A stretch of DNA of 34,574 nucleotides from Bacteroidota bacterium (GTDB lineage Bacteria; Bacteroidota; Ignavibacteria; SZUA-365): positions 1 through 34,574 of the forward strand of contig JARYLZ010000027.1 of NCBI GenBank assembly GCA_029907355.1, in the 5' to 3' direction. The notes under the pieces were generated by a model, which ran no database searches, was not told the DNA's origin, and worked only from the letters and a program-made list of their open reading frames with translations. Positions 9,760 through 27,160 of this stretch are shown here, in pieces. Position 1 is the stretch's first letter; every line of letters begins with the position of its first letter. Both the position numbers and the translations under genes were made by a program.

Positions 9760-9789
9760 AAAAAGCGCCTGCGGAGGAGTCTCGCGCTT
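9760..9789 (-). terminator. Intrinsic terminator at the end of the fab-rnc operon
   Basis: On the minus strand AAGCGC (9784-9789) pairs with GCGCTT (9763-9768) across a 15-nt loop and runs straight into a T-tract (complement of A at 9760-9764). The 5' arm touches the rnc stop codon. This is one of the few hairpins in the window with a proper U-tract. Confidence 0.6.
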
Positions 9790-10616
9790 CACACCCCCGT
9801 GTCGCCTGTTTCCCGTGAACGGAAATACTCCAGTGCGGCCGCCGCGGCGGTCTGTTCCGCCGCCTTCTTGCTCCCACCCGACCCGCGTCCTACGGGGATG
9901 CCGTTCACCTGGACTTCGACCGTGAAGACGGGACTGTGGTCGGGACCGCTCTCGTCGAGGGTAACGTAACGCGGCAGACCCATCCCCCGTGCCTGTGCGT
10001 ACTCGAGCAGACGGCTCTTGTAGTTGTCGTCCACCGCCAGGCGGAGGGATGTGAACTGGGAAAGGATCTGGTCTTCGATGAACGTTTTCGCTGCCTTGTA
10101 CCCGCCGTCGAGGTATATCGCGGCAATGAAGGCTTCGAGTGCATCGACGAGTATCGAATCGCTTCCCGCGCGTATCGCTTGATGTGCGCTGGGGCTCATC
10201 AGCAGAAAATCCTCCAGGCGCAACCGATGGGCGCATTCCGCGAGCGAAGCCCTGCTGACGATGCGGGCGCGGATTTTGGAAAGTTCGCCTTCCTCGGCAT
10301 CGGGGAATGCGTGGTAGATATGCTCCGCGGTGACGAGATTGAGAATGGAATCCCCCAGGAATTCCATGCGCTCGTTCGACTGCGTGACGCCCGGCGAGCA
10401 CAGCTGGAGGTAAGAACGATGGATGATCGCCTGGAGGAAATACTTCTCGTGCCGGACGTGGTACCCTGTCCGGCGGGCGAACTCGCCGCAATCGAAACTC
10501 AGCGGCGCAGATACGGCGACACGCCCTTCATCCTGGACATGTTCGGCGGAAGGGGGAGCGGAAGGCCGGGACGATGTGCTACGGGGTGCGAAGAACAGCT
10601 TGAGCAGGCGGAACAT
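9789..10616 (-). CDS. rnc: Ribonuclease III
   Basis: The 275-residue enzyme cuts double-stranded RNA in rRNA and mRNA processing. The nuclease signature NERMEFLGDSIL is at 81-92 with catalytic Glu85 and Asp89, and the second acidic cluster lies in ILVDALEAFIAAIYLDGG. A double-stranded RNA-binding domain follows, ending in GSGGSKKAAEQTAAAAALEYF. An extra N-terminal basic and low-complexity stretch of about 40 residues precedes the conserved region; MFRLLKLFF could be a short helix, or the true start could be internal, but no good internal ATG exists before the domain. It starts 19 bp after fabF and is the last gene of the fatty-acid operon, a position commonly seen in many bacteria. Confidence 0.95.
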   Translation of the reverse strand: MFRLLKLFFAPRSTSSRPSAPPSAEHVQDEGRVAVSAPLSFDCGEFARRTGYHVRHEKYFLQAIIHRSYLQLCSPGVTQSNERMEFLGDSILNLVTAEHIYHAFPDAEEGELSKIRARIVSRASLAECAHRLRLEDFLLMSPSAHQAIRAGSDSILVDALEAFIAAIYLDGGYKAAKTFIEDQILSQFTSLRLAVDDNYKSRLLEYAQARGMGLPRYVTLDESGPDHSPVFTVEVQVNGIPVGRGSGGSKKAAEQTAAAAALEYFRSRETGDTGV

Positions 10617-10635
10617 ACGGGACGGGGTGGCGGCC

Positions 10636-11886
<1,251 letters not shown>

Positions 11887-17431: not shown

Positions 17432-18919
17432 TCAAGGGGAAATGCGTTCGGTCTTGCGATACCGTGCGGCAGCGAGCGAGTCCCATGTCGGGATGACTCT
17501 CGCGAGAAAGAGGTTCTTTTTCATCCTCAGGGCGGGCATGTCCAATCCCACCAACGCCTGCGCCTTCGCTTTTGTGGAGATGTCCGGAACCGGCACCGGC
17601 CCGCGTACACCGTGCGCCGCGAGGATGCGCGCCAAGGAAAGCCTCGCTTCCTGCGCTTTCTCGATCGATGTCGCCAGCACCCGTGCCGCTTCGACCGGTG
17701 AATGGAACCCCACGCTGTTCGCTGCGGCGACCCAGTCCCACCGCCATTGCGCATGGCGGATGAGCGTGAGAACCGGTTTCATTTCCTCCTCGCCGGCACC
17801 GGCTTCCCATGCAGTTTTCGCTTCGATGTGTGCGTGCACGAGCGCATCCTCCGCCACCCGCTTCAACGCGTCGATCTTGTCCTGCCTTTCGTAGACGTTT
17901 TCACGGAGCGTTTCCTCGCTCTGTCGATGGCATACCATGCAGGAAGAGGAGATGTCGTCGAGGGGACTGCGGATTTTGTGGTCCGTGAACTTTACCCCGC
18001 CCTGGTCGATGTATACCATGTGGCAGTCGGCGCAGGACACGCCGCGCTGGGCATGGATGCCCGTGCGGAACAGCTCGTAATCCGGGTGCTGGGCCTTGAG
18101 CATGGGCGCACGGCTCAACGCGTGCACGAAATCGGTGTGGCCGATCGCGTCGTAGTACGCTTCCATCCGCTCCGCCGTGAAGCCGCTGTCCCATGGAAAC
18201 GCGAGGTACGCATCCGCCTTGCCTTTGAAGTAGTACTCGACATGACATTGCGCGCAGGTGAGGGATCGCAGTTCCTGGAATGATACCTTCCCGATGTCCT
18301 CGCCGCGCCGGCTGAGGGCTTCGCCGAGCGCAGGCCGCGTAATCCGCAGACTCGCCGTTTCCGGGTCGTGGCAATCCATGCACCCGATGTTATTGACGAT
18401 TTCCGGTCCGAGTTCGGCCCAAGGGGTCCGGTAGAAAGCAGCGATACCCCGCTCTTTCATAACCCGCGGGACGTCCGTGCTCTTGCAGGTCCAGCACGTC
18501 CCCGGCTGCGGCACGTCGGTCCGAAGCGTCTTGCGGACGTCCTCCACCGCGTGGTAATGCCCCCTGCCCTGATTGTAATCCCGTGAGAAGGCATATCCCG
18601 CCCACAGGATGACCAGCCGCGGGTCGCGCTCGAGATAATCGATCGTCGCCGAACCGCCGTGCTTGCTGGCGAATGTCGTATCCGCCGTCGCGGTATACGT
18701 TTCGAACTGGCGGGGGAAATTGTCTTTCCAAGCGATATCCCGCGGGTCTCCTTCCGGAATCGGCGTGATCATCCGGTTAATAAGGCGCGATTCGCACCGC
18801 CGTTCCATGATCGAGGCCCCGAAGAGCCCGAGGAGGAAGACAGCGACCATCGTCCCGAGAAAGAGGGCCCAACCGACCCAGGGTTTTTCTTTGACGATCT
18901 GCGTGAGGGTTTTCTCCAT
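17432..18919 (-). CDS. nrfA: Cytochrome c nitrite reductase, pentaheme catalytic subunit
   Basis: This 495-residue protein reduces nitrite to ammonium with six electrons at the outer face of the membrane. Heme sites are CWTCK at 142-146 (the lysine-ligated active-site heme that defines NrfA), CMDCH 180-184, CAQCH 222-226, CADCH 296-300 and CMVCH 327-331. Likely catalytic residues are Tyr229 or Tyr230 in VEYYF and His289 in GIHAQRGVSCADCH. The N-terminus has one hydrophobic helix (about 15-35) with no obvious cleavage site, so the enzyme is probably membrane-tethered. A GGAAAGG Shine-Dalgarno lies 5 nt before the ATG. It follows nrfH by 75 bp, the order typical of the NrfHA complex. Confidence 0.97.
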   Translation of the reverse strand: MEKTLTQIVKEKPWVGWALFLGTMVAVFLLGLFGASIMERRCESRLINRMITPIPEGDPRDIAWKDNFPRQFETYTATADTTFASKHGGSATIDYLERDPRLVILWAGYAFSRDYNQGRGHYHAVEDVRKTLRTDVPQPGTCWTCKSTDVPRVMKERGIAAFYRTPWAELGPEIVNNIGCMDCHDPETASLRITRPALGEALSRRGEDIGKVSFQELRSLTCAQCHVEYYFKGKADAYLAFPWDSGFTAERMEAYYDAIGHTDFVHALSRAPMLKAQHPDYELFRTGIHAQRGVSCADCHMVYIDQGGVKFTDHKIRSPLDDISSSCMVCHRQSEETLRENVYERQDKIDALKRVAEDALVHAHIEAKTAWEAGAGEEEMKPVLTLIRHAQWRWDWVAAANSVGFHSPVEAARVLATSIEKAQEARLSLARILAAHGVRGPVPVPDISTKAKAQALVGLDMPALRMKKNLFLARVIPTWDSLAAARYRKTERISP

Positions 18920-18994
18920 GTCGACCTTTCCATTCTCATCGGTTGAGGTGTATGCGGAAAAACGAGGCGTATCGTGTTCCGAGAAGGCGGCGTC

Positions 18995-19573
18995 TCACCA
19001 CGGCATGCCGGTCTGCCCTCCTCCTTTCCCTTTCCGATGGAATAGGGAGACCGTGATTTCGGGAATGCGTGGGACTGGGGCCGAGGGCACCGAGGCAAGA
19101 CCGTTGACACGCCCGTGGGGTACCTCGCGGTGACAATGCAGGCAATCGGTCTCCCCCTCGGCGAGGGAGACGTCGTGGATGAGCGCGGCATGGCAGCGCA
19201 TGCAATTTTTCCGGACGACGGCCTTGCCGGCCGCCCGGATGCGGATGACTTGAGGTTCCGCCCTCGCGGTGAACACGGCCGCGTGCCTGAGACCGTCCTG
19301 CGCCTTGAACAGGTATGTGGCGAGGATGTTCCCATGCGGGACATGGCAGTCGTTGCAGGTAGCCGCCTTCCCATGGCTGCCCTTTCTCCACGTCGTATAC
19401 TGGGGAGCCATGACGTGGCAATTCATGCATGTTTCCGGCTTGTCGGAGAGATAGGATGGGGCTTCGGAAACGCGGAGCACCAGCCCTCCGAGACCGGCAA
19501 ATGCAGCGAGGATGATGATCACCGGGAGTCGCCAAGAATCCGGAGGAGTCAGAAAACGGACAAGTTTGGTCAT
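18995..19573 (-). CDS. nrfH: NrfH tetraheme quinol dehydrogenase
   Basis: The 192-residue NapC/NrfH-family protein oxidises menaquinol and passes electrons to NrfA. It has one N-terminal membrane helix (about 15-35, LPVIIILAAFAGLGGLVL) and four heme motifs: CMNCH (49-53) with Met55 as the likely unusual axial ligand of heme 1, CNDCH (73-77), CMRCH (124-128) and CLHCH (144-148). A Pro- and Gly-rich tail of about 40 residues after the last heme has no obvious role. The region just upstream of the ATG is AT-rich (TATATATT near 19584), but I found no clear -33 box and no FNR-type TTGAT-N4-ATCAA site. Confidence 0.95.
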   Translation of the reverse strand: MTKLVRFLTPPDSWRLPVIIILAAFAGLGGLVLRVSEAPSYLSDKPETCMNCHVMAPQYTTWRKGSHGKAATCNDCHVPHGNILATYLFKAQDGLRHAAVFTARAEPQVIRIRAAGKAVVRKNCMRCHAALIHDVSLAEGETDCLHCHREVPHGRVNGLASVPSAPVPRIPEITVSLFHRKGKGGGQTGMPW

Positions 19574-22550: not shown

Positions 22551-22581
22551 TTGATTGCAAGACCGTCCTTTGCTACCATTG
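22551..22581 (+). promoter_or_regulatory. Promoter of the YVTN beta-propeller gene
   Basis: TTG (22551-22553), a 20-nt spacer and TACCATTG (22574-22581) match the consensus with 7 of 8 in the -7 box. The transcription start would be near 22588, 39 nt before the ATG at 22627. Confidence 0.55.
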
Positions 22582-22626
22582 CAAGAAAGCCGAACCGGTA
22601 AACCTTCCCACAAACCCCGAATAGCC

Positions 22627-23661
22627 ATGAAAACCCCGATCACCATCTCGGCTGGGCTTGCGATCGTCGCAGGCATTTTCTTTTCCGCCTTCGTAACGGC
22701 GCCCGTCACCCATGCGCAACCGCACATGGTGTACGCCGTCCTCCAGGACGAGGGGAATCTCGCCGTCGTCGACCCGGAGAAAGGAAGACTCATCCAGCGT
22801 ATTCAGATCGGGCGGAAACCCGACATGATCGCACTCAATGAAAACGACACGAAAGTCTATATCAGCAACACCGGCGACGTCACCGTTTCCATCGTGACCC
22901 TCAGCTCGAGGTCGGTCACGCAGGTCCTCCGCCTCCCCGTGAACCGGCGCGGCATATACGCGGGTCCGCTCACACGCACCCCGGACGGTCTGAAAATTTT
23001 CGTTGCGGAACGGTCGGAAACGGCCGACGAAGACCTCCGTATCTACGTCATCGACACGAGGAAAGAGCTCATCGTCCGCCAGTTCGACGGGGGAAAGAAC
23101 ATCGCGGCCATGTCCGTCTCCTACGATGGGGGCAAACTGTTCGTGCTCAACCGCGGCGAGGGCGTTTCCGTGTACGACGCGGAAACTTGCGAAAAGCTCG
23201 GGACCGTAGAATTGATCGCCGGATTCGCAGCCGATGCCGCGGGCCTCGCGTGCAGCCCCACGGCGCCGAAAGGGTACATCACCTACGGGACCCGGAACAC
23301 CGTCCAGGCGTTCAACACGGAGAGCTACAAGAACACGGCCACGATCCCGATGCCGAAGTACAAGACGGGAAACCAGACCGACGTCGTATTCGGGCGCGAC
23401 GGCCGTTATGCGTTCGTCATCAACAGGAAAAACACGCTGAAGGAAGTGAACGGCGTCAACGTCATCGACGCCGCGAGCGACACGGTGGTCAAGCTTTTCA
23501 ACTCCGGCGTGGTGCGTCGCGGCATCATGACATCACCGGACGGGAAGATCTGTTATATCGCGGCGGAGGATCTCAAGTGGTACAACATGGAGACCCTCGA
23601 GCATATCCGTTCCATTTCCCTCCGCACGACGATTGCAGGCATCGCCGTCGTGAATAAATGA
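22627..23661 (+). CDS. Exported YVTN-family beta-propeller protein
   Basis: The 344-residue protein has a signal peptide (MKTPITISAGLAIVAG..., likely cleaved after THA at about residue 30) followed by repeated blades. Each blade reads roughly as 'xVYxVLQDEGNLAVVDPEKGRLIQRI' then 'IGRKPDMIALNENDTKVYISN', the YVTN/cytochrome-D1-heme-domain-like surface propeller pattern. About six or seven blades fit the length. Family members are periplasmic or surface binding proteins, and some act in nitrite or metal metabolism, but the heme-coordinating residues of NirF/NirS are not evident. The start at 22627 is preferred over 22555 because the promoter lies between them and the signal peptide begins there. 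It is monocistronic and its ligand is unknown. Confidence 0.85.
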   Translation: MKTPITISAGLAIVAGIFFSAFVTAPVTHAQPHMVYAVLQDEGNLAVVDPEKGRLIQRIQIGRKPDMIALNENDTKVYISNTGDVTVSIVTLSSRSVTQVLRLPVNRRGIYAGPLTRTPDGLKIFVAERSETADEDLRIYVIDTRKELIVRQFDGGKNIAAMSVSYDGGKLFVLNRGEGVSVYDAETCEKLGTVELIAGFAADAAGLACSPTAPKGYITYGTRNTVQAFNTESYKNTATIPMPKYKTGNQTDVVFGRDGRYAFVINRKNTLKEVNGVNVIDAASDTVVKLFNSGVVRRGIMTSPDGKICYIAAEDLKWYNMETLEHIRSISLRTTIAGIAVVNK

Positions 23662-23666
23662 CCCCC

Positions 23667-23737
23667 TTCCCCGGATCGCGCCGGGGGAATCGGATATGCC
23701 CGGAAGGCCGCCGGCTGTCGGCCAATGCGGCCTTCCG
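23667..23737 (+). terminator. Two tandem GC-rich hairpins after the beta-propeller gene
   Basis: TTCCCCGG (23667-23674) pairs with CCGGGGGAA (23681-23689) with one bulged G, 5 nt after the stop. Next, CGGAAGGCCGC (23701-23711) pairs perfectly over 11 bp with GCGGCCTTCCG (23727-23737) around a 15-nt loop. Neither has a U-tract. The position suggests transcript ends or protection against decay. Confidence 0.5.
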
Positions 23738-24061
23738 CAACGAAGGCATGCGGGGGCAACCTACACGCCATCGGGAATTCGCGGCCGTCCCTTCTCGACG
23801 CGCGAACGCTCACCTGTTCGGGCGGTGGTCATGAACAACGCCTGGAGAGGCCGGTGTCGCATCACCGAATGAAGTCGACCCTCATATGAGCATTTCTCCC
23901 GACCACTCCGTGTGCCGCGTCCAGCGGACACACGGAGTTTCCCGGCGGCGCGTCCATCCGCATGTCCGTGTTCCCCTCATGCCGCATGGAGCGGCATGCG
24001 AGCGGGATCGTTTTCCGCGATATCATCCCGCGGAGCTCAACGGAAACGCCCAGCGGAACAC
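23738..24061. repeat. Hairpin- and repeat-rich convergent intergenic region
   Basis: This stretch lies between two convergent genes and has no supported ORF. It contains CTCCGTGTG/CACACGGAG plus CCGC/GCGG (23906-23937, one bulge, followed by TTT), CATGCCGC/GCGGCATG (23978-23998, 8 bp, loop of 5) and GCGGGAT/ATCCCGC (24002-24031). The direct repeat CTCAACGGAAAC is at 24036-24047 and 24061-24072, and GGAAACA/TGTTTCC is at 24067-24082, running into the end of the opposing gene. Together with 23667-23737 this makes at least five hairpins in about 370 bp. Confidence 0.6.
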
Positions 24062-24607
24062 TCAACGGAAACAGATGTTTCCCCCTGCTTCCGTTTTCGC
24101 GATGCACTGCTCGATACTGGGCTCTGGCGCTTGACAGCGGGGATGGAACGGGTTGTGGAGCATGGCCGGCTGGAGAGTACAGCACCGTGTCTTCAACTCC
24201 CGCTCCTCGGTCAAAACGATGTTCCCGTCGGCGTCCCGATGCACGATTTCGCTGTTCCGCGTGACCGGAACGCAACGGCAGAGCCAGGAATACTCGTTCG
24301 ATGCCCACGTGGCGGCGAACTCGAGCGCCAGACCGCTCAAACGGCCGAGGATGGGGGACCGAGTTCTTTCCGTAACGATGAGCGTGACCGACGGGACGAC
24401 GAGATCCCGCGTCACCTTGTTGAGACCGGTGAGCGCGAAATCGAGGTAGCCGTTTTTACAGACGTCGGATCCGCCGCCGAGATACCTTTGGTACCGCTCG
24501 AACCATTCCTCGTGCGTGAGGTCATCGCCCATGCCTGCAACTCCCTTCCCCGTGAGCGTCAGCATCGTACACAGGCAGAGCAGAATCGATTTCCCGAATG
24601 TCTTCAT
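24062..24607 (-). CDS. Secreted cysteine-rich protein of unknown function
   Basis: The 181-residue product starts MKTFGKSILLCLCTMLTL, a signal-peptide-like segment ending near residue 25. The mature part has eight cysteines (50, 110, 112, 142, 143, 158, 168, 179), an even number that would suit disulfide bonding outside the cytoplasm. I do not recognise a family. No transmembrane helix is clear after the signal, although 71-100 is fairly hydrophobic. It starts 12 nt after the stop of the preceding secreted gene with an AGGGGAA Shine-Dalgarno-like site, so the two genes form a probable operon. The last codons overlap the CTCAACGGAAAC repeat and a small inverted repeat. Confidence 0.65.
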   Translation of the reverse strand: MKTFGKSILLCLCTMLTLTGKGVAGMGDDLTHEEWFERYQRYLGGGSDVCKNGYLDFALTGLNKVTRDLVVPSVTLIVTERTRSPILGRLSGLALEFAATWASNEYSWLCRCVPVTRNSEIVHRDADGNIVLTEERELKTRCCTLQPAMLHNPFHPRCQAPEPSIEQCIAKTEAGGNICFR

Positions 24608-24619
24608 GGTCGTTCCCCT

Positions 24620-25801
24620 TCATTTCATGCACCGGATGAGCGAATAATTGAAGAAGCCGTCCCAACGGACGAATGCAAAGACAAAGCCCGCCGCGAAAGC
24701 GGAACGAGGCGGGCGGAACGAGACGTTCCCTCCCGAAGAGGCTTCTTTCACCTCTTGGTGGAGGATACGCCCCGAAACGTCGGCGATCGTCAGCATGACC
24801 TCGTCCCCCACTCCCCCATCCTTGCGATGCGCGTGGATGAGGGGATCCGAGGCGGAAACCATCGCGGGGTAGATCGTGATTCCTGCGTCGCGCGGCGAGA
24901 GAACGGGCAGCCAACCGTCCCTTTCCTCCTTCCCCATCTTGGCGAGTATGTTCTCGGCCACGGCCTCAACATCCTTTTGGAACGAGTCCCAATCGTCGAT
25001 CATCAACGTCGACAACCGTTCATACGATTGAAAGCGGACATACAGGGCGCGATTTCGGTACCGGTCCCCCTCCACGGGAATGACCGACGCCGACAAACGG
25101 CATCGAACGGGTCGCCCGATAACGTTCTCTCCGGGTTCACGCATGAGGAGAAAAGGGTACTCGCCGGACGAAGGAGAGGTTTGTTCGAGTGTCCGCCGGG
25201 CGAGAACGAGAACGAAATCCTCCCAGTTCGAGCAAGGTGGGATCACGATCCGATCGAGCGTTTCGAGAAGCGTGCCGCTCTGCGCATCGATCAGTTCGAT
25301 CGAGAACAGCACGGTGTCCGTCGTGTTCATCTCCGCAGCCCCCTGCGCGATGTCCACAGCCGACCCGTCTTCCCGGACGACGGGGAAGCGGAATCCGAAA
25401 TCGCGGAACATGACGAGCCTCCTATCACGACCCAAGGTGAACGGGACGGTGACGATGGCGTTGGCGTACTCGTCGGAGTTATGGCGATAGAGCGGGAGGT
25501 ACGGTGTCTCACGCTGGGTGGAGAGGGGGTGATCCCAGCGTATCTCCTCTCGCGCTTGCCCTTTCGTCTCGACGGCCACTTCGCCGGCGAGAAGGCGAAG
25601 TGCGACGCTCGGGTAGAATTGGGCGACATCGGCATACGTCGACCATGATTCCCCCGTGGCGGTTTTCAGGCCCGTGACGTCGCTCGGGTCACCGAAAGCT
25701 TCTCGAGGCCATACCTGGGCTGTCGCGACCAGAATCGAACATGCCGAAAAAGCCGCAAGGAAAGCGAAGACCGACAATCCGCTCATTTTTCGTGTACACA
25801 T
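24620..25801 (-). CDS. Secreted protein with a divergent type IX sorting-like C-terminus
   Basis: The 393-residue protein begins with a signal peptide (MCTRKMSGLSVFAFLAAFSACSILVATAQ, cleavage near residue 28). The middle is beta-rich with no family I recognise, and holds phrases such as TVPFTLGRDRRLVMFRDFG. The last 80 residues resemble a type IX (Por) C-terminal sorting domain: IYPAMVSA in place of YPNPVS, then VMLTIADVSGRILHQ, GNVSFRPP, and AAGFVFAFVRWDGFFNYSLI. The match is imperfect, notably the missing second Pro-Asn-Pro pattern and an unusual RCMK end. The ATG at 25801 has an AGGGAGA Shine-Dalgarno about 7 nt upstream. It is probably exported together with the small cysteine-rich protein encoded next. 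Confidence 0.75.
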   Translation of the reverse strand: MCTRKMSGLSVFAFLAAFSACSILVATAQVWPREAFGDPSDVTGLKTATGESWSTYADVAQFYPSVALRLLAGEVAVETKGQAREEIRWDHPLSTQRETPYLPLYRHNSDEYANAIVTVPFTLGRDRRLVMFRDFGFRFPVVREDGSAVDIAQGAAEMNTTDTVLFSIELIDAQSGTLLETLDRIVIPPCSNWEDFVLVLARRTLEQTSPSSGEYPFLLMREPGENVIGRPVRCRLSASVIPVEGDRYRNRALYVRFQSYERLSTLMIDDWDSFQKDVEAVAENILAKMGKEERDGWLPVLSPRDAGITIYPAMVSASDPLIHAHRKDGGVGDEVMLTIADVSGRILHQEVKEASSGGNVSFRPPRSAFAAGFVFAFVRWDGFFNYSLIRCMK

Positions 25802-26060
25802 GATGGTTCTCCCTGAATTGTTTTATTGAAAAACAGGAACGAAACCGCCCGGAACCACGGGCGGCGGCCGGTGTTATTCGATGGCTTTCCCTTGAATCCC
25901 TCCCTTGCTGATGAACCCGAAATGGAACGATGACGAGCCAGCCCATGCAGCGGCGCATGGCGGGTTGCTATTACGATTGGGAACGTTCTCATGTTCCCCC
26001 ATACTCACGGGATAGTGCGGAAGAACACCGGTCCATGAGGGGAGGACTTCAGGAAAATGT
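25802..26060. other. Divergent intergenic region with a leader hairpin
   Basis: This stretch has no supported gene. On the minus strand, upstream of the secreted-protein gene, CCGCCC (25859-25864) pairs with GGGCGG (25845-25850) around an 8-nt loop and is followed by the T-rich TTTCGTTCCTGTTTTTC. That has the form of an intrinsic terminator placed about 45 nt before the ATG, which suggests a leader attenuator or the end of a small transcript. I could not find its promoter. Confidence 0.4.
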
Positions 26061-26091
26061 TTTGCGCATCCTCGGATTCTTGCTACTTTTA
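26061..26091 (+). promoter_or_regulatory. Promoter of the rmlB-wecC-wecB operon
   Basis: TTTG (26061-26064), a 19-nt spacer and TACTTTTA (26084-26091) match the consensus with 7 of 8 in the -7 box. The transcription start would be near 26098, which places the ATG at 26096 out of the message and supports 26117 as the rmlB start. Confidence 0.65.
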
Positions 26092-26116
26092 ACGATTGAA
26101 CCGCTCTGTTTCGCGG

Positions 26117-27160
26117 ATGAGCATTCACTCGAAGACCCCCACCAGGAAACTCACGAACGTACTCGTCACCGGAGGTGCCGGTTTCATCGGCAGCGCCTTC
26201 GTGCGGGCCGCCGTCGGCGAGCACTGGTTCCCGGGAAAGGTGGTTGTTCTCGACGCCTTGACGTACGCCGGGAATTTCGAGAACATCGCCGATTTCGCCG
26301 ACGCCCTCACCTTCATCCATGGGGATATCTGCGACGCAGACATGGTCGAAAAGACGATCTCGACCCACCAAATCGATACCGTCGTCCACTTCGCCGCCGA
26401 ATCCCACGTGGACCGCAGCATTCTCGGGCCCATGGTCTTCACGCGAACGAACGTGCTCGGCACGCACACATTGCTCGAGATGTCCCGGAGACTCGGCGTC
26501 CGGTTGTTCCTGCACATATCGACGGACGAGGTGTACGGGTCGCTGGGAGAAGAAGGGTCGTTCACTGAGTTGTCCCCTCTCAACCCCACGAGCCCATACG
26601 CGGCGAGCAAAGCCGCTGCCGACCTGATGGTCTTGGCGTACGCGCGGACATACGGTTTCCCCGCCATCGTGACACGCTGTTCCAACAATTACGGACCATA
26701 CCAGTTCCCGGAGAAGCTGATTCCCCTCATGATCATCCATGCCCTCCGCGGCATGGAACTGCCCGTATACGGGGACGGGATGAATATCCGCGATTGGATC
26801 CACACGCGCGATCACGTCGGCGCTTTGCGGTGTATCCTCTCGTCGGGAAGGGAGGGCGAGATCTACAACATCGGCGGGGGCAACCAGCGGCGGAACATCG
26901 ATATCGTCCGTGCCATTCTCCGGTATCTCGGGAAACCCGAGTCCCTCGTCCGCTTCGTGTCCGACCGGCCCGGGCACGACCGCCGCTACGCCGTCGATTC
27001 CGCCAAACTCGCTTCCGAACTCGGCTGGCGCCCCGTCGTCCCGTTCGAGGAAGGGCTCAGGGAAACAATCGAGTGGTACGTGCGGAACGAACCATGGTGG
27101 CGACGCGTGATGGACGGTGAATACCAGGAATACTATACACGACAGTATCTCAAGCGTTAA
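26117..27160 (+). CDS. rmlB: dTDP-glucose 4,6-dehydratase
   Basis: The 347-residue extended short-chain dehydrogenase converts dTDP-glucose to dTDP-4-keto-6-deoxyglucose. It shows the NAD-binding TGGAGFIG, the catalytic Thr-Asp-Glu in HISTDEVYGS, the Tyr-x3-Lys in SPYAASKAAAD, and the substrate-side NNYGPYQFPEKLIPLMI, GDGMNIRDWIHTRDH and GHDRRYAVDSAKL blocks. These are specific to RmlB rather than to UDP-glucose epimerases. RmlA, C and D are not nearby, so the product could feed rhamnose or another deoxysugar. It is the first gene of a surface-polysaccharide nucleotide-sugar operon. ATGs at 26096 and 26117 compete; the promoter favours 26117. Confidence 0.93.
   Translation: MSIHSKTPTRKLTNVLVTGGAGFIGSAFVRAAVGEHWFPGKVVVLDALTYAGNFENIADFADALTFIHGDICDADMVEKTISTHQIDTVVHFAAESHVDRSILGPMVFTRTNVLGTHTLLEMSRRLGVRLFLHISTDEVYGSLGEEGSFTELSPLNPTSPYAASKAAADLMVLAYARTYGFPAIVTRCSNNYGPYQFPEKLIPLMIIHALRGMELPVYGDGMNIRDWIHTRDHVGALRCILSSGREGEIYNIGGGNQRRNIDIVRAILRYLGKPESLVRFVSDRPGHDRRYAVDSAKLASELGWRPVVPFEEGLRETIEWYVRNEPWWRRVMDGEYQEYYTRQYLKR

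Follow-up and report, generated by a model that had tools for sequence, protein, structure and literature searches.

The gene pair and its frames

The stretch of DNA analysed here, designated the window, covers the 34,574 nucleotides of contig JARYLZ010000027.1 (assembly GCA_029907355.1) from a Bacteroidota bacterium of the class Ignavibacteria, order SZUA-365, and carries on its reverse strand, at positions 24062-25801, two consecutive genes for putative exported proteins, the export of both being judged from their hydrophobic N-termini. Gene A (24620..25801) starts with the ATG at 25801, ends with the stop codon at 24620-24622 and encodes 393 residues. These comprise a probable signal peptide (residues 1-29, 25715..25801, its boundary set by eye), an N-domain (residues 30-300, 24902..25714), which is the portion common to the class-wide family described below, and a T9SS-type C-terminal sorting domain (residues 306-393, 24623..24886), predicted as a seven-strand sandwich. 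Gene B (24062..24607) starts with the ATG at 24607, 12 nt past the stop of A, ends with the stop codon at 24062-24064 and encodes 181 residues, including eight cysteines in the mature part. This layout is the one given by the first-pass annotation and is confirmed by the frames.

A long antisense frame (23912-25648, forward strand) is also present. The frames of A and B are supported, since in the genome G006 conserved homologues of both stand side by side with their order kept, sharing with the window proteins 34% (A; E 2.3e-69) and 36% (B; E 1.8e-25) identity. As had been stated before, neither protein resembles a known family, no Pfam or NCBIfam match having been obtained for A or B of the window at E<=10; a clear resemblance to an unrelated family already described was looked for and found for neither of them. 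Sequence searches of the PDB with the profiles of A and B gave one match each, with E-values of 0.55 and 2.2, respectively, neither of which is credible, and no description of such a pair was found in the open-access literature, as far as titles and opening parts of abstracts are concerned.

The C-terminal domain of protein A

The end of A had been called sorting-domain-like, a description that stands with regard to profile-profile comparison and predicted fold and fails with regard to the curated models. The model TIGR04183 has no match in A at E<=10, and A is absent from the 129 places found by this model at E<=0.01 in its own genome, where T9SS cargo is thus numerous; there is likewise no match of PF18962 for A itself. 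Among the A relatives scanned, two of six match TIGR04183, and two A proteins of the wider set match Por_Secre_tail, in all these cases below the cut-off, which is a curated one for TIGR04183. Because the curated models miss A itself, its filing as a member of TIGR04183 was rejected.

When compared by hhalign with 17 sorting domains found by TIGR04183 in the same genome, the tails of A scored 93.3% (E 2.7e-7) with two rows and 95.5% (E 1.6e-8) with five rows, the A N-domain used as a control scoring 0.2%. The values were 96.9% for the tails of the four A proteins paired with the framework Bs described below (control 0.1%), 96.8% for those of 14 of the 15 other A proteins with a downstream B (control 0.7%) and 97.7% for those of 19 of the 23 with an upstream B (control 0.3%). 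The AF2 model of A, built from a 3-row alignment only, shows seven strands at residues 308-390, with pLDDT blocks of 57-79 at residues 321-390, about 50 at 301-320 and mostly below 50 elsewhere, this being the case almost throughout the N-domain. Fold searches with this model inform on the C-terminal domain only; PorU (6za2) was matched with a Z-score of 9.1, a value at which many unrelated Ig-like chains tie.

Protein A thus combines homology to sorting domains of its own genome with a predicted seven-stranded Ig-like sandwich at the extreme C-terminus, i.e. both features of a T9SS domain in the broad sense, and these two lines of evidence identify its C-terminus as a divergent sorting domain of the T9SS. 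Like the T9SS type A sorting domain proteins (TIGR04183/PF18962), it has a signal-like N-terminus and a C-terminal Ig-like domain profile-related to the sorting domains of its genome; it differs from them in being missed by the curated models and in having an N-domain that matched no named family. Solved T9SS domains are Ig-like 3+4 sandwiches (seven strands) of very low mutual sequence identity, and secretion failed in a point mutant in which the contact between one such domain and the domain before it was disturbed (PMC11285876), so that a divergent tail such as that of A may still work. The genome of the window also encodes the PorU sortase (NF033707, 943 bits against a cut-off of 420). It should be noted that the profile of the full-length A family matches in 124 of 197 genomes of the class and that, outside the order, most of the matches listed cover only the last ~100 positions and represent the ends of other proteins.

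The cysteine framework of protein B

The mature cysteines of B (residues 50, 110, 112, 142, 143, 158, 168 and 179) form a framework, C-x59-CxC-x29-CC-x14-C-x9-C-x10-C, encoded at 24071..24460 on the reverse strand; they would presumably form disulfides in the periplasm. The stretch from CxC to CC (24179..24280, reverse strand) may be a beta-hairpin, at very low model confidence, the structure model of B being unusable (mean pLDDT 35). Four Bs, namely those of the window, of its paralogue in the same genome, of G006 and of G007, follow the common pattern C-x(39-59)-CxC-x(19-29)-C-x(0-2)-C-x(12-16)-C-x(8-9)-C-x(9-13)-C, with one extra cysteine in the first framework gap in G007, and start at -44 to +12 nt relative to the stop of A, the two distant ones sharing just 13-17% identity with the window B. 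The pattern was written from these four proteins themselves, and matched nothing else in the 1401 frames of 77 partly overlapping loci, which documents its specificity and is not independent support.

No Pfam match was found for the Bs of G006, the paralogue and G007, and NCBIfam gave one match for them, far below the cut-off (E 0.16); seven Bs of the wider set had a single Pfam match, also below the cut-off (E 0.3). A profile of B, searched in 197 genomes, recovered only its own four input rows, and further Bs were therefore located by position.

Two kinds of known proteins invite comparison. Concerning the T9SS pairs of the SprB/SprF type, the likeness consists in a cargo, here A, being encoded beside a dedicated exported partner. 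The SprF/PorP-like adaptor is, however, an outer-membrane beta-barrel of about 300 residues, whereas B is small and cysteine-rich (181 residues, eight mature cysteines) and has no Pfam or NCBIfam match, so B was not identified as such an adaptor. With the small disulfide-rich secreted proteins, such as toxins, defensins and knottins, B shares the short exported chain and a conserved cysteine framework with little else kept, but it is tied to a T9SS-type gene and has no Pfam match.

Occurrence of the pair within the order

Matches of A were found in six of the 16 genomes of the order (nine places) and those of B, by plain sequence, in two of the 16. In G006 both genes have the same order and strand as in the window and are flanked by the same neighbours, i.e. 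a gene for a dTDP-glucose dehydratase on the upstream side and one for a YVTN-repeat protein on the downstream side (named by eye). A second pair is present in the window's own genome, on contig 110, and one more in G007. The pair, regarded in the first-pass annotation as an orphan, is therefore not one: it adjoins in G006, G007 and the own-genome paralogue, as was to be checked, homologues always encoded apart were looked for and not encountered, and the A family is class-wide.

Other A-like genes of the order are accompanied by differently built Bs, with six cysteines at loci L170 (G006) and L177 (G009) and four at L071 (G006), and G010, G012, G013 and G014 contain A copies that have, despite sufficient room, no B by the rule given below. 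In a scan of genome contigs, A was located in the Bacteroidetes MAG Dive96_bin3.154 and the Chlorobiota MAG M_MetaBat.140, on contigs equal in length to G014:C353 and G013:C230, respectively. At L012 of G010 (9774-10640, reverse strand), an A without B overlaps by 4 nt an upstream 288-residue exported protein, perhaps a different partner, and two further loci of this genome, L065 and L066, hold shortened, decayed-looking A-like copies.

Class-wide family and cysteine-rich neighbours

Of seven weak N-domain relatives viewed, four were seen at once to have a small cysteine-rich neighbour and two more, L074 and L073, later. A 17-row profile of the N-domain matched in 64 of 391 genomes of the class at E<=1e-4, and when 395 genomes were drawn from the whole phylum, the 23 with a match all belonged to this same class. 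The scan scored at most six candidates per genome, and the copy numbers of A are therefore lower bounds; the weakest matches, many of them in frames of ~1000 residues, may be other T9SS proteins. The match in G003, a 330-residue frame (L006/L015), was dropped as spurious.

The neighbours were counted for 99 distinct A-like frames (E<=1e-6) from 187 loci that had been gathered by searching for A. A neighbour was taken as a B if it was encoded on the same strand, had 50-260 residues, a hydrophobic N-terminus, at least six cysteines and a cysteine content of at least 4%, the cysteine thresholds having been set after Bs had already been seen. By this rule, a cysteine-rich exported neighbour lies downstream of 19 of 91 A-like genes, upstream of 23 of 88 and on either side of 37 of the 80 with room on both sides, compared with 0/50, 0/20 and 0/17, respectively, for other frames with T9SS domains (the upstream controls being few) and 3/378, 3/356 and 4/262 for other frames of at least 250 residues; the last control includes shadow frames, and two of its six listed matches are Bs that were counted from a frame lying next to them. 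The downstream excess persists both under a stricter rule with CxC (17/91 against 0/50 and 1/384 for T9SS and other frames, respectively) and under a looser one with four cysteines and 3.5% (21/91 against 0/50 and 7/384). Excluded from the 80 are 19 of the 99 A-like genes, which lack room on one or both sides; with all of them counted, 42/99 have a B beside them. Since 43 of the 80 have none by the rule, including copies in G010, G012 and G013 of the order, B is not needed by every A. The rule itself misses some candidates, i.e. those of L129 (upstream, 17 cysteines), L161 (16) and L071 (4) and, by eye, the Bs of L114, apparently split by a frame change, and L147, apparently cut short.

The tight coupling of the two genes had been taken to suggest a partnership between a surface protein and a disulfide-rich partner. 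With the T9SS-type tail and the excess of neighbours (37/80 versus 0/17 and 4/262) this idea is supported, a physical partnership being what these data would suggest. An ordinary T9SS cargo lying by chance beside an unrelated small exported gene could be imagined in a genome so rich in such cargos (129 TIGR04183 places at E<=0.01); the explanation is, however, largely contradicted and very improbable, given that the cysteine-rich neighbour recurs across the A tree and was seen beside none of the other T9SS-domain frames examined. Judging from the sequence comparisons, the window pair is one case of a class-wide, fast-changing two-gene unit.

An all-against-all comparison of the neighbours, made without any cysteine rule, also had families of B among the recurrent ones. 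No third shared gene stood out, the 14 largest neighbour clusters spanning at most six loci each; the largest of them stems from near-identical genomes, and the flanks are short in many loci. Genome G072 has at least six A-like matches, and its locus L173 contains a tandem array of three A-like genes within 5 kb, with small CxC-bearing frames between some of them.

A small, disulfide-rich, secreted and fast-varying B, together with several A copies in some genomes (such as the six or more of G072, with the three in tandem at L173), could also fit a competition or toxin-like system, in which B or A would act on other cells and its partner would carry or neutralise it. Such a role seems improbable, as no Pfam toxin domain was found in seven Bs and three As of the wider set or in the window pair, nor any immunity-like third gene among the neighbour clusters examined.

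Two types of partner and the evolutionary tree of A

Downstream Bs follow A frames shorter than 425 residues (19 of 48 with room) and none of the 43 longer ones; of these 19 Bs, 17 have CxC, 14 have C-x5-C and 12 have both, the two motifs occurring together in 762 of 9500 shuffled versions of the same sequences. Upstream Bs precede mainly the A frames of at least 425 residues (19 of 40 with room, against 4 of 48 for shorter frames), 21 of the 23 having 10-20 cysteines and 13 having C-x3-CC. By its CxC and spacing, the window B resembles the short, i.e. downstream, type, to which it may be related.

The evolutionary tree, based on 93 A-like N-domains, reflects this division. A well-supported clade of 43 contains 21 upstream and no downstream partners, a clade of 29 contains 13 downstream and two upstream ones, and a weak grouping (66/51) of 21 rows, including the window, contains six downstream and no upstream ones. 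The labels of partner position require three changes on the tree versus about 14 in shuffles, none of 500 shuffles being as low. The similarities among As and among Bs are correlated as well, with rho of 0.58 (0/2000 permutations as high) and 0.49 (1/2000), a correlated divergence that could be expected also from shared descent alone.

In 10 of the 19 As with a downstream B (L072, L075, L124, L127, L130, L137, L150, L169, L171 and L180), the mature protein starts near a cysteine (AQCDS-like) that might be linked to B by a disulfide; the A of the window has no such cysteine.

Possible roles of the two proteins

Four computed results, namely the domain of T9SS type in A, the gene for the sortase, the recurrence of the pair and the framework of B, lead us to infer, as the most likely explanation, the binding, the joint export, the surface location and the function outlined as follows, with a probability of about one half. 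Protein A would be exported by Sec and taken by its Ig-like C-terminal domain to the T9SS translocon, where the PorU sortase would remove this domain and then either anchor A on the surface or release it. Protein B would be a small protein dedicated to A: it would likewise pass through Sec, fold with the help of disulfides in the periplasm and carry no sorting domain. It would bind the N-domain of A in the periplasm, the pair would leave the cell together, and A would in this way display a fast-evolving disulfide-rich module outside the cell. Against B as a passenger it can be held that, without a sorting domain, it may stay in the periplasm.

This objection leads to the main rival explanation, according to which B assists A in the periplasm, as a folding helper or as an adaptor for export: it would keep hold of the N-domain of A until this is translocated and would itself be left behind, in the manner of dedicated chaperones and of SprF-type T9SS adaptors. 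It would agree with the putative Sec export of B, its lack of a sorting domain, the close pairing with A and the correlated divergence; many A genes are, however, without B, and dedicated chaperones are rarely so cysteine-rich or so divergent. Such a helper role is considered rather unlikely.

Usually, each T9SS cargo is recognised individually, by its C-terminal domain. If B is carried out and displayed by A, one may tentatively, and with the odds against it, think of a display or delivery platform across the class, in which disulfide-rich Bs without such a domain would leave the cell bound to a T9SS cargo, with A as carrier and B as the variable part that does the work. A widespread cargo family with its own small disulfide-rich partner would suggest, if true, that the T9SS can export a passenger without a sorting signal of its own, or that certain cargos depend on a helper specific to them, and two sets of nameless reading frames would become one recognisable unit with a searchable signature.

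Hairpins and neighbouring genes

The hairpins had been thought to make the locus more unusual; they add little. The leader hairpin, 43 nt upstream of A (25845..25864, reverse strand), has a perfect 7-bp stem and a 6-nt loop, and is not clearly a terminator: a scan of 23600-26200 found three terminator-like sites versus 2.8 in shuffles, and the 99-nt leader of A folds no better than shuffles (z -0.25). A hairpin of equal stem and loop length lies in the G006 leader at -55 (-63 in the window), three of the seven pairs being changed on both sides in this comparison of two sequences only. Stems of at least 7 bp number 25 as listed in the window (four of them twice with another loop) versus 16.4 in base shuffles; those of the 7-bp type occur about once per 1.4-1.6 kb, so that the probability of meeting one by chance within about 40 nt is estimated at a few per cent. 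Four other A leaders have no stem of at least 6 bp (the starts there being uncertain), and that of G007, also with an uncertain start, has one only within the coding part. The hairpins were therefore set aside as part of the A-B system, that of the leader being left as a minor lead.

The hairpins at 23701..23998, which separate B from the YVTN gene converging on it, are probably terminators, as expected between convergent genes; the fold predicted for 23900-24049 is better than those of shuffles (z -2.91, 1/200 as good). Rfam matched only a tRNA in the window.

An exported YVTN-repeat (beta-propeller) protein is encoded near A in four genomes from two families of the order (window 22555-23661, forward strand; L010 7676-8782; L019 2929-4014; L020 2480-3559), the gene lying beyond B in convergent orientation in two genomes and, in the other two, on the upstream side with its strand shared. 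At 17432-19535 (reverse strand) of the window, a small NrfH-like protein with four CxxCH motifs, which is one of the other-frames control matches under the B rule, precedes a frame of 495 residues that may, judged by eye, encode the nitrite reductase NrfA. Divergently from A, the segment 26096-29627 (forward strand) encodes, by eye, a dTDP-glucose dehydratase, a UDP-sugar dehydrogenase and a UDP-GlcNAc 2-epimerase, the order of the first two being kept in G006.
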